DNA of 64,000 bases. Source: Puniceicoccaceae bacterium (GTDB lineage: Bacteria > Verrucomicrobiota > Verrucomicrobiia > Opitutales > Opitutaceae). The notes under the pieces were generated by a model. The model saw nothing but the letters and a program-made list of their open reading frames with translations. It did no database searches and had not been told where the DNA came from. Position 1 is the first letter of the stretch, and each line of letters opens with the position of its first letter. This document shows, piece by piece, positions 42,550 to 44,298 of this stretch. The position numbers were made by a program, and so were the translations under genes. The stretch covers positions 1 to 64,000 of the forward strand of contig REEB01000069.1 of the NCBI GenBank assembly GCA_007695295.1. The letters run 5' to 3'.

Positions 42550-42936
42550 TTACTTGATCTCGACCTTGGCGCCGGCCGCTTCGAGCTTGGCCTTGATGCT
42601 CTCGGCCTCGTCCTTGGAAACGGCTTCCTTGACGGGTTTGGGCGCGCCTTCGACGAGATCCTTGGCCTCCTTGAGGCCGAGGGAGGTGACGGCGCGGACC
42701 TCCTTGATGGCGGCGATCTTGTTGGAGCCGGCGGCCACGAGAATGACGTCGAACTCGGTTTTTTCCTCGGCGGGGGCGGCGGCTCCGGCGGCGCCGGCGG
42801 GAGCGGCGGCCACGGCCACGGGAGCGGCGGCGCTGACGCCCCACTTTTCCTCGAGGTCCTTGACGAGGCCTGCGATATCGAGAACGGACTGGTTGCTGAG
42901 CCAGTCGATGACTTGGTCTTTGGTGATGTCTGACAT
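42550..42936 (-). CDS. rplL: 50S ribosomal protein L7/L12
   Basis: 128 residues. L7/L12 forms the ribosome stalk dimers that recruit elongation factors. The N-terminal dimerisation helix ('[20 protein letters not shown]'), Ala-rich hinge (about 35-55) and C-terminal domain ('[20 protein letters not shown]', '[19 protein letters not shown]') are complete. A Shine-Dalgarno-like AAGGA precedes the ATG. A 144 bp gap with a structured RNA candidate separates it from rplJ. Confidence 0.97.
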
Positions 42937-42950
42937 GGGATTCCTTGAAG

Positions 42951-42999
42951 GGCTAGCGATCCCCCGGGGGGATGCGTTTAAGGGCGGAAGCCCCTAGCC
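42951..42999 (-). promoter_or_regulatory. three-way-junction RNA candidate in the rplL leader
   Basis: On the minus strand a 6 bp closing stem (GGCTAG, 42999-42994, with CTAGCC, 42956-42951) encloses two hairpins. One is GGGC-TTCC-GCCC (42993-42982); the other is built on C6G5 with AT/AT ends (42973-42959), 6 bp with a 3 nt loop. Linkers are 8 and 2 nt. The structure ends 5 nt before the AAGGA ribosome-binding site of rplL and 14 nt before its ATG. It could control rplL translation, or be a processing or pausing site. Confidence 0.5.
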
Positions 43000-43080
43000 G
43001 GGTTCTTTGGATGGATGTGGTATTGGGTTGGCTTCTGGCCGGTGGCGGCCGGAAAGTGGACAGGGATGGCTCGGGGCGGT

Positions 43081-43599
43081 TCAGTTTTCCTCCGCCTGGC
43101 GAACCTTGGCCTGGAGGACCGTGACCATGGAGGTGGGGACGGCGTTGAGCACCCTGACGAGCATGGAGGCGGGCTGGTTGAGAAGGCCGAGGAACTGGGC
43201 GCGGAGCACTTCCATGGTGGGAAGATCGGCGAGTTGCTTGACCTCATCGGGTGAGATAACGCGCTGTTCGAGGACACCGGCCTTGACCTCGACTTTGGAA
43301 CTCTCGGCGAAGAAGGACTTGATGATTTTGGCGACTCCGCTGGGATTGTTTCCCCCGATGACGATGGCGGTGGGCCCTGCGAGGAAGTCCTCGAGGTCGG
43401 GCAGGGAACGCTCCTTGGCGGCGACACGCAGGACGCTGTTTTTGACCACGTGGAACTCGGCCTGCTCGGCGGCAAGCCGGTCGCGGAGGTCGGAGACTTC
43501 CGAAACGGTGATGCGGTCGTAGTTGGCGAGGAAAACGTAGTCGGACTTCTGGAGGTGACGGGACACCTCATCGACGAGAAATTGCTTTTCAGGTCTCAT
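43081..43599 (-). CDS. rplJ: 50S ribosomal protein L10
   Basis: 172 residues. L10 anchors the L7/L12 dimers to the large subunit near L11. N-terminal rRNA-binding domain: 'RPEKQFLVDEVSRHLQKSDY' and 'HVVKNSVLRVAAKERSL'. The C-terminal helix that binds L12 is 'QPASMLVRVLNAVPTSMVTV'. Six bases follow rplA, so no room is left for a leader between them. Confidence 0.96.
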   Translation of the reverse strand: MRPEKQFLVDEVSRHLQKSDYVFLANYDRITVSEVSDLRDRLAAEQAEFHVVKNSVLRVAAKERSLPDLEDFLAGPTAIVIGGNNPSGVAKIIKSFFAESSKVEVKAGVLEQRVISPDEVKQLADLPTMEVLRAQFLGLLNQPASMLVRVLNAVPTSMVTVLQAKVRQAEEN

Positions 43600-43605
43600 G
43601 GGAAA

Positions 43606-44298
43606 TCAGAATTTGGCGTATTCGGAGGGGGCCAGGCGGATGCCGGGGGCCATGGTGGCGGTAAGGGTGACGCTGAGGATGAAGCGGCCTTTGAGGGATT
43701 CCGGCTTGGCCTTGGCGACGGCGTTGAGGAGGGTGGAGGCGTTTTCCAAAATCTGCTCGTTGGAGAACGAACGTTTGCCGATGCCGACGCCGATGTTGGC
43801 GGTTTTGTCCATTTTGAACTCGACCCGGCCGGCCTTGACTTCACGGATGGCGCCGGCGATGTCGGCGCTGACGGTGCCGGACTTGGGGTTCGGCATGAGC
43901 CCCTTGGGGCCGAGGATGCGGGCGATGGTGCGGACCTCCTTCATCGCCTCGGGGGTGGCCACGGCGGTGTCGAAGTCGAGCCAGCCACCCTGGATTTTTT
44001 CCATCAGGTCCTTGAGGCCGGCATGGTCGGCGCCGGCGGCGAGGGCCTCGTCGGGGTTTTCGGTGAAAGCGAGGACGCGGACCTTCTTGCCACTGCCGTG
44101 GGGCAGGGAAACGGTGCCGCGCACCATTTGGTCGCCTTGGCGGGGATCGACCCCGAGGCGAAAGGACAGCTCGACGGTTTCGTCGAAGCGGGCCTTGGGA
44201 AGTTTGCTCAAGGCTTCGACGGCCTCGGCGAGGGAATACTCGCGGGAGAGATCGGTGGCCTGCTGGGCGGACTTGTAGCGTTTGGACAGTTTAACCAT
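43606..44298 (-). CDS. rplA: 50S ribosomal protein L1
   Basis: 230 residues. L1 binds 23S rRNA at the mobile stalk by the E site and can also repress its own operon mRNA. 'KTANIGVGIGKRSFSNEQIL' and 'LGPKGLMPNPKSGTVSADI' are the conserved RNA-binding segments. Length matches the family. The gap to rplK is 51 bp; no clear L1-binding leader was identified in it. Confidence 0.97.
   Translation of the reverse strand: MVKLSKRYKSAQQATDLSREYSLAEAVEALSKLPKARFDETVELSFRLGVDPRQGDQMVRGTVSLPHGSGKKVRVLAFTENPDEALAAGADHAGLKDLMEKIQGGWLDFDTAVATPEAMKEVRTIARILGPKGLMPNPKSGTVSADIAGAIREVKAGRVEFKMDKTANIGVGIGKRSFSNEQILENASTLLNAVAKAKPESLKGRFILSVTLTATMAPGIRLAPSEYAKF

Follow-up and report, generated by a model that had tools for sequence, protein, structure and literature searches.

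Results

A three-way junction RNA in the rplJ–rplL gap

A structured RNA of 49 nt that folds as a three-way junction is present directly ahead of rplL on the minus strand of the window (the whole 64,000-nt stretch of a Puniceicoccaceae bacterium contig analysed here), and it is both real and wider in distribution than first thought. Its analogy with known L10-binding RNAs suggests a conserved cis-acting RNA of the rplJ–rplL mRNA through which L10–L12 would control the translation of rplL, a reading to which we give an even chance.

In the ORF listing of the window, rplJ, rplL, and rpoB are encoded on the minus strand; the names rplA, rplJ, rplL, and rpoB are those we presume from the sequences and gene order. 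The rplJ–rplL gap measures 144 nt (the rplJ stop ends at 43081 and the rplL start is at 42936), and the junction occupies 42999–42951 within it. A terminator scan found no intrinsic terminator in this gap on either strand, and we infer transcription of the element from its place inside the operon. The features of the locus are as follows.

42550..42936, minus strand: rplL, presumably ribosomal protein L12, 128 aa (ORF; named from sequence and neighbours)
42942..42946, minus strand: Shine-Dalgarno-like AAGGA of rplL (sequence)
42947..42949, minus strand: P0 3' strand UUC, directly abutting the Shine-Dalgarno-like sequence (minimum-energy fold and flank-pairing test)
42951..42999, minus strand: whole three-way junction P1-P2-UUAAA-P3-P1' (fold, R1 match, weak R2 match)
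42951..42956, minus strand: P1 3' strand CUAGCC (fold and A2 alignment)
42957..42976, minus strand: hairpin P3, CG, bulged C42974, AUCCCC CCG GGGGAU, CG (fold)
42977..42981, minus strand: junction strand UUAAA, unpaired (fold; kept in relatives)
42982..42993, minus strand: hairpin P2, GGGC UUCC GCCC, stacking directly on P1
42994..42999, minus strand: P1 5' strand GGCUAG, pairing with 42951-42956
43003..43005, minus strand: P0 5' strand GAA, forming an outer helix with UUC 42947-42949 (minimum-energy fold and flank-pairing test)
43009..43011, minus strand: UCC able to pair with GGA (42944-42942) of the Shine-Dalgarno-like sequence (minimum-energy fold)
43081..43599, minus strand: rplJ, presumably ribosomal protein L10, 172 aa (ORF)
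43606..44298, minus strand: rplA, presumably ribosomal protein L1, ending 6 nt ahead of rplJ (ORF)

The first-pass annotation had drawn a closing stem with two internal hairpins in these 49 nt, and this fold is indeed found on the minus strand, with a minimum free energy of −23.9 kcal/mol, a P1 of 6 bp, a P2 of 4 bp, the unpaired UUAAA, and a P3 of 2+6 bp. The drawing was described as free of mismatches; it contains none, but one C (42974) is bulged in P3. Compared with shuffled sequences, the 49 nt gave z = −1.74, with 12/200 shuffles folding as well, and the wider region gave z = −0.84, with 40/200 folding as well. Since the energy alone is little better than chance, the case is settled by comparison with relatives.

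Covariation of the element within Opitutales

Loci were collected from rplL matches, which were found in 129/150 genomes of the same family, and from an rplJ search of named genomes, which gave 77 loci. The gap was measurable in 206 loci, and 197 were left once seven loci from other phyla and two copies of the window itself had been removed; some loci of the rplJ search share genomes with those of the rplL search, and the counts are not independent. The motif T[TC]AA[AT] was present 28–75 nt ahead of rplL in 197/197 of these related loci, which were located with that same pattern. Because the motif is short and may occur by chance, the weight rests on covariation. Among the 189 distinct gaps, the motif was TTAAA in 148, TCAAA in 34, and TCAAT in 7, and a C stood immediately before it in 187.

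The 197 loci gave 176 distinct regions, of which 175 were parsed and 137 had a near-minimum fold, six (L033, L049, L050, L052, L054, and L204) having been left out by name before the 137. Removal of near-duplicates reduced these to 58, and L046 and L191 were dropped by hand to give alignment A2 (56 sequences). In A2, whose cores were picked by a pairing-demanding parser that favours paired cells and whose shuffles ignore relatedness, 88.3% of the cells were paired, compared to 69.8% in shuffled alignments and at most 45.4% when slid by 1–3 columns. Both sides had changed in 14/17 pairs (10.8 in shuffles), double-change cells numbered 167 (50.0 in shuffles), and the covariation score was 0.490, as against 0.179 in shuffles (0/500 reached the observed value) and at most 0.211 when slid. 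By helix, the paired cells amounted to 95.5% in P1, 98.7% in P2, and 75.8% in P3, with both-side changes in 5/6, 3/4, and 6/7 pairs, respectively. The P1 variants seen by eye include GGCUAG/CUAGCC, GGUUAG/CUAACC, GGUUCG/CGAACC, GGAUCG/CGAUCC, and GGCUCG/CGAGCC. For the same stretch, the parsed fold and the minimum-energy fold coincided in 73/175 sequences, and the parsed fold was within 2 kcal/mol of the minimum in 126/175. When 55 full regions were analysed by MAFFT and RNAalifold, unsupervised, P2 alone was recovered owing to the varying length of P3.

Relatives were also compared for a lack of covariation or stem conservation, which would speak against the element, and covariation was strong both in A2 and in the alignment of the other families described below. 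The unremarkable energy would be in keeping with a chance fold of a GC-rich gap; however, the covariation and the placement in relatives lead us to reject this explanation, whose probability we regard as negligible.

A covariance model of the Opitutales element (R1) matched the element in the genome of the window with 59.7 bits (E 4.2e-15), and this was the sole strong match, the next having an E value of 5.6. Among 286 sampled class genomes, in which the positions of R1 matches and rplL were compared by eye, R1 matched at rplL in 28/29 other genomes of the same family and 14/22 other genomes of the same order. The sole family member missed (G015) had no rplL match either. In seven of the eight order members missed at rplL (L261–L266 and L268), the UUAAA strand is present together with P1 and P2, and in one family among them P3 is reduced or absent. 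A smaller R1 search, which gave 91 matches in total in 100 sources, reached three of the eight (L262, L265, and L268). R1 also gave weak matches in five class genomes outside the order; in G365, G375, and G389, rplL is on another contig. The eighth order member, L267 (G269), has a strongly diverged element with a GGUCCC...GGGACC closing stem and a UUAAUU junction.

Elements of the same layout in other families of the class

In other class families, reading of the gaps revealed the same layout before rplL with unrelated stems, for example GGUUCC-UCGUCG-P2-UCAAA-P3-CGACGA-UACC and CCUAG-P2-AUAAU-P3-CUAGG. A layout parser accepted 41/49 non-Opitutales gaps of the class at a level of at most 5/100 dinucleotide shuffles, and 25/49 with stricter settings. 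The parser accepted 35/47 sampled Opitutales gaps, 2/8 further gaps of the class, and 1/31 gaps from elsewhere in the phylum, three of these 31 being too short to contain the layout. Four loci of the phylum outside the class (L324, L326, L336, and L354) have longer rplJ–rplL gaps with other hairpins; in L324 and L354, GUGU and UAA occur near the start of the gap and ACAC before rplL, which may be a different design serving the same purpose.

Alignment A3 was derived from the 49 non-Opitutales gaps: from the 41 parsed, 10 irregular ones were removed by hand and five because of insertions or deletions, leaving 26 sequences over 55 columns. With a choice of rows that favours paired cells, and with shuffles and swaps that ignore relatedness, 95.5% of the A3 cells were paired, compared to 66.9% in shuffles. 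Both-side changes were observed in 20/25 pairs (the 25 include four loop-loop pairs), with 172 double-change cells (51.8 in shuffles) and a score of 0.789 (0.255 in shuffles). The junction strand contained UAA in 14/26 sequences, CAA in 10/26, and GAA in 2/26.

The loop-loop pairs of A3 join four P2 loop positions with four of P3 in a fixed register; 95.2% of their cells were paired (82.1% in shuffles) with a score of 0.515 (0.277), cells and score both being above all shuffles. Both-side changes occurred in 1/4 pairs and did not exceed the shuffled level: one pair is found as both G-C and C-G, in two pairs a single side varies, and the fourth is invariant. A loose swap test of loop-loop pairing on the 41 parsed gaps gave 9.45 vs 9.41, with 233/500 swaps as high. 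Limited to the central 6 nt, the test was marginal at a minimum of 3 bp (8.86 vs 8.13, 33/1000 swaps), and at a minimum of 4 bp it gave pairing in 34/41 gaps vs 23.9 and a score of 7.89 vs 5.61, reached by 0/1000 swaps.

The model built from A3 (R2) matched 165/234 class genomes outside Opitutales at E 0.01 when the 286 class genomes were searched with stricter filters. Among the listed matches for which both coordinates were known, 87/88 lay on the rplL strand, 15–89 nt ahead of the rplL match. A comparison that had been proposed among Opitutia was thereby widened, and it places the element in many families across the class. Searched against the gaps themselves, R2 matched 32/37 class loci at E ≤1 (five of the 32 being A3 rows) and 0/32 loci outside the class. 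At E 0.1, 10/96 genomes from elsewhere in the phylum had a match, none of them near rplL when positions were compared by eye.

The two models hardly cross-match. R2 gave zero matches at E 0.01 within Opitutales among the 286 class genomes, and R1, searched up to E 10, had no match in any of 28 sources, of which 21 have the other element type. R2 matched the element of the window weakly at its exact coordinates, 42951..42999 (11.7 bits, E 0.89), its best match in that genome lying elsewhere (contig 66, 21.4 bits, E 0.02), and it matched one other Opitutales element at rplL (G157, E 0.065). A common origin thus rests on place, topology, and the junction strand, from which we infer that the two element types may share an origin.

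Outer pairing and the ribosome-binding site

The 3' end of P1 (42951) is separated by 4 nt from the Shine-Dalgarno-like AAGGA. The flanks that would form the outer helix P0 were compared in 123 Opitutales sequences, and the mean pairing score was 6.79, compared to 3.38 for swapped 3' flanks (sd 0.23, maximum 3.99 among 200 swaps), in a control that ignores relatedness and covers Opitutales only. The comparison of sequences therefore supports P0 as a predicted helix in Opitutales, adjoining the ribosome-binding site. UCCAAnGA, which covers the UCC at 43009..43011, appears in the majority consensus of 55 relatives; this is agreement in sequence, the pairing with the Shine-Dalgarno-like sequence being predicted from energy. 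In three relatives (L196, L197, and L199), the junction UUAA could take UUAG in the P1 5' strand as its partner, which would lengthen P2 at lower energy; this alternative pairing is a possible switch partner.

In 139 Opitutales sequences, the end of P1 lies 12–21 nt from the rplL start; 109 of them have a match to a loose Shine-Dalgarno pattern after P1, and 30 do not. Several non-Opitutales families have no obvious Shine-Dalgarno sequence before rplL by eye. A model in which the element blocks the Shine-Dalgarno sequence is perhaps not general, because of these 30 sequences and these families.

L12 is needed in several copies, in excess over L10. A role of the element in the supply of L12, or of L12 relative to L10, is a natural guess from its place. 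Such a role might need no ligand at all: the RNA could act as a translation enhancer or spacer that keeps the rplL start open for a fixed high rate of L12 synthesis, or could protect the mRNA between the genes. The demand for excess L12, the compact fold, and the families lacking a clear Shine-Dalgarno sequence by eye, in which the RNA might itself aid initiation, fit this explanation. However, the junction strand (mostly UUAAA or UCAAA) is kept while the stems change, suggesting a surface that is recognised or a fold that must be precise, and we consider an element without a ligand rather improbable. An RNA-processing or decay signal, such as an RNase site that separates the rplJ message from the rplL–rpoBC message, would suit an intergenic place in a long operon, but the short helices, the conserved junction, and the 12–21 nt to the rplL start fit the control of initiation better, and we hold such a signal to be very unlikely.

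Absence of an L10 leader ahead of rplJ

A search with Rfam 15 gave no match at gathering score over the element; two tRNAs were found elsewhere in the window. The L10 leader model RF00557, with which E. coli's own L10 leader scores merely 13.7 bits, had no match in the window and none up to E 10 in the window's gap. It exceeded its gathering score of 44 bits in 0/188 class genomes; its weak matches numbered 42 in 33/188 genomes, and the 20 that were checked fell at loci without these genes. Up to E 1, RF00557 matched none of 20 Opitutales loci and 20 other loci.

The spacing of 6 nt between rplA and rplJ in the window means that an L10 leader cannot fit there. The rplA–rplJ gap was 5–83 nt in Opitutales loci (≤40 nt in 193/194) and 4–48 nt in 19 measurable further loci, nine of the order and ten of other families. 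The first-pass annotation had set a structured element at rplL apart from the well-known control ahead of rplJ. The element is real and lies at rplL, but with such short rplA–rplJ gaps and no RF00557 match it does not look like an addition to an rplJ leader; rather, it is perhaps the relocated L10(L12) control site of the operon.

Comparison with RNAs that bind ribosomal stalk proteins

The RF00557 consensus, as read from its weak alignment with the E. coli leader, consists of P1, a stacked P2, an unpaired CUUAAuuau, and P1'. The rplL element thus has in common with the L10 leader (E. coli, Bacillus, and others) P1, the stacked P2, the unpaired CUUAA strand, and the operon, and the same ligand is proposed by analogy. 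They differ in place, the L10 leader being ahead of rplJ and the element ahead of rplL, and in the extra hairpin P3 that follows UUAAA in the element, L10 leaders being without P3. According to the accessible part of PMC4538822, the published target of L10(L12)4 is a kink-turn together with an unpaired UAA; the kink-turn of the L10 target also appears in PMC10931766. By eye, no kink-turn was seen in the flanks of the element, which carry the predicted Watson-Crick P0 instead and no opposed GA/GA. An unpaired UAA beside a stem-hairpin is present in the window (within UUAAA) and in 148/189 Opitutales gaps, 41/189 having CAA; UAA is short, and this likeness, which may be shared by chance, is accordingly limited. 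As model match, place, and kink-turn all fail, we do not file the element as RF00557. Judged by its sequence, a conserved and covarying RNA that immediately precedes an r-protein gene, it is of the r-leader kind.

The GTPase-associated region of 23S rRNA, helices 42–44, offers a second likeness. E. coli 23S 1051–1108 folds as P1, hairpin, AUUUAAAG, hairpin, P1', which is the same order of parts, and both RNAs have a G-C pair closing P1; in the elements this pair closes P1 at the junction in 55/56 sequences of A2 and 26/26 of A3. The two hairpin loops of helices 42–44 contact each other. Meeting hairpin loops are thus common to both RNAs, in the element outside Opitutales, whereas the loop sequences differ (with E. 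coli rRNA as the sole reference) and the kink-turn of helix 42 has no counterpart in the element.

Proposed control of rplL by L10–L12

Binding of, and repression by, L10(L12)n is proposed on the grounds of the shared part order, the (C)UUAA strand of most members, the G-C pair closing P1, the gene position, and the loss of the leader slot ahead of rplJ. The free L10(L12)n stalk complex would bind the junction as it does on helices 42–44 of 23S rRNA and hold P1 and P0 closed; the closed helices would hinder the loading of 30S subunits at rplL and lessen L12 synthesis. When free complex is scarce, the element would open and L12 would be made. Because the element acts after rplJ, it would tune L12 relative to L10. 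The missing kink-turn, the UAA that is not invariant, the unmatched RF00557, and the extra P3 weaken the L10 reading.

L12 is the sole multi-copy ribosomal protein. A more far-reaching form of the proposal, which we advance tentatively and hold to be possible but somewhat doubtful, is that in the ancestor of the class the L10(L12) feedback moved from the rplJ leader to the rplJ–rplL gap, where it became a compact mimic of the stalk base with a UUAA junction and kissing loops, sensing L12 stoichiometry and acting on L12 alone. The occurrence of UAA in 14/26 rows of A3 and the lying elsewhere of the best R2 match in the window's own genome lower both this relocation and the L10 reading.

The rRNA site of L11 is the same helix 43–44 junction. 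The RNA might bind this or another ligand, for example L1 or a non-ribosomal protein, and control rplL or rplL–rpoBC through a steric effect of the same sort. The topology does resemble the L11 part of helices 42–44, as does the pairing between loops in the families outside Opitutales, and the missing kink-turn and non-invariant UAA that weaken L10 count in favour of another ligand. Conversely, the hairpin loops are unlike those of the E. coli rRNA site, we know of no L11 autoregulation, and a place between the genes for L10 and L12 speaks for the stalk proteins; a ligand other than L10–L12 seems to us unlikely.

To our knowledge, how bacteria make several L12 per L10 is understood in a few model species only. 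A strongly covarying RNA before rplL in many families that have no room for an L10 leader is a concrete candidate for a control site. If the element is a mimic of the stalk base, it would be a new design of rRNA mimic, and a feedback site could move within its operon. The covariance models R1 and R2 could help to annotate genomes across the class.

Other structured RNAs at rplL

In E. coli, rplJ and rplL are subject to long-range translational coupling, in which the rplL start region pairs with a distant part of the rplJ coding sequence. In both cases the rplL start is, or in the present case would be, controlled by mRNA structure in the same operon; the window differs in having a local conserved junction. 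An rplL leader as such is not without precedent: the accessible part of PMC8040213 describes HMP2_2105 (Treponema) and HMP2_254 (Collinsella) as candidate structured RNAs directly upstream of L7/L12 and suggests them as possible ribosomal-protein leaders. Compared by position and description alone, as far as that text gives them, these candidates occupy the same place before rplL in other phyla. Among the literature matches listed, which consisted of titles and abstract starts and included few subscription papers, the element itself was unreported, the candidates of PMC8040213 aside; a compilation of 20 r-leaders (PMC7247131), in the accessible part of its main text, has nothing on L10, L12, Verrucomicrobia, or Opitutus.

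In the rplL–rpoB gap of E. coli (L321, 2931–2992), RF00630 (P26, listed as a Pseudomonas sRNA) matched right after rplL with 74.5 bits. P26 may therefore be an operon-internal RNA, not a separate sRNA gene. A second GC hairpin (CCGGCC...GGCC, flanked by UUUC and AGAA, without a T-run) lies between the element and the end of rplJ, at 43032–43056 on the minus strand of the window. A similar hairpin, for example UUUCCGGCGCAAGCCGGGGAA, recurs at roughly the same position in many Opitutaceae relatives.
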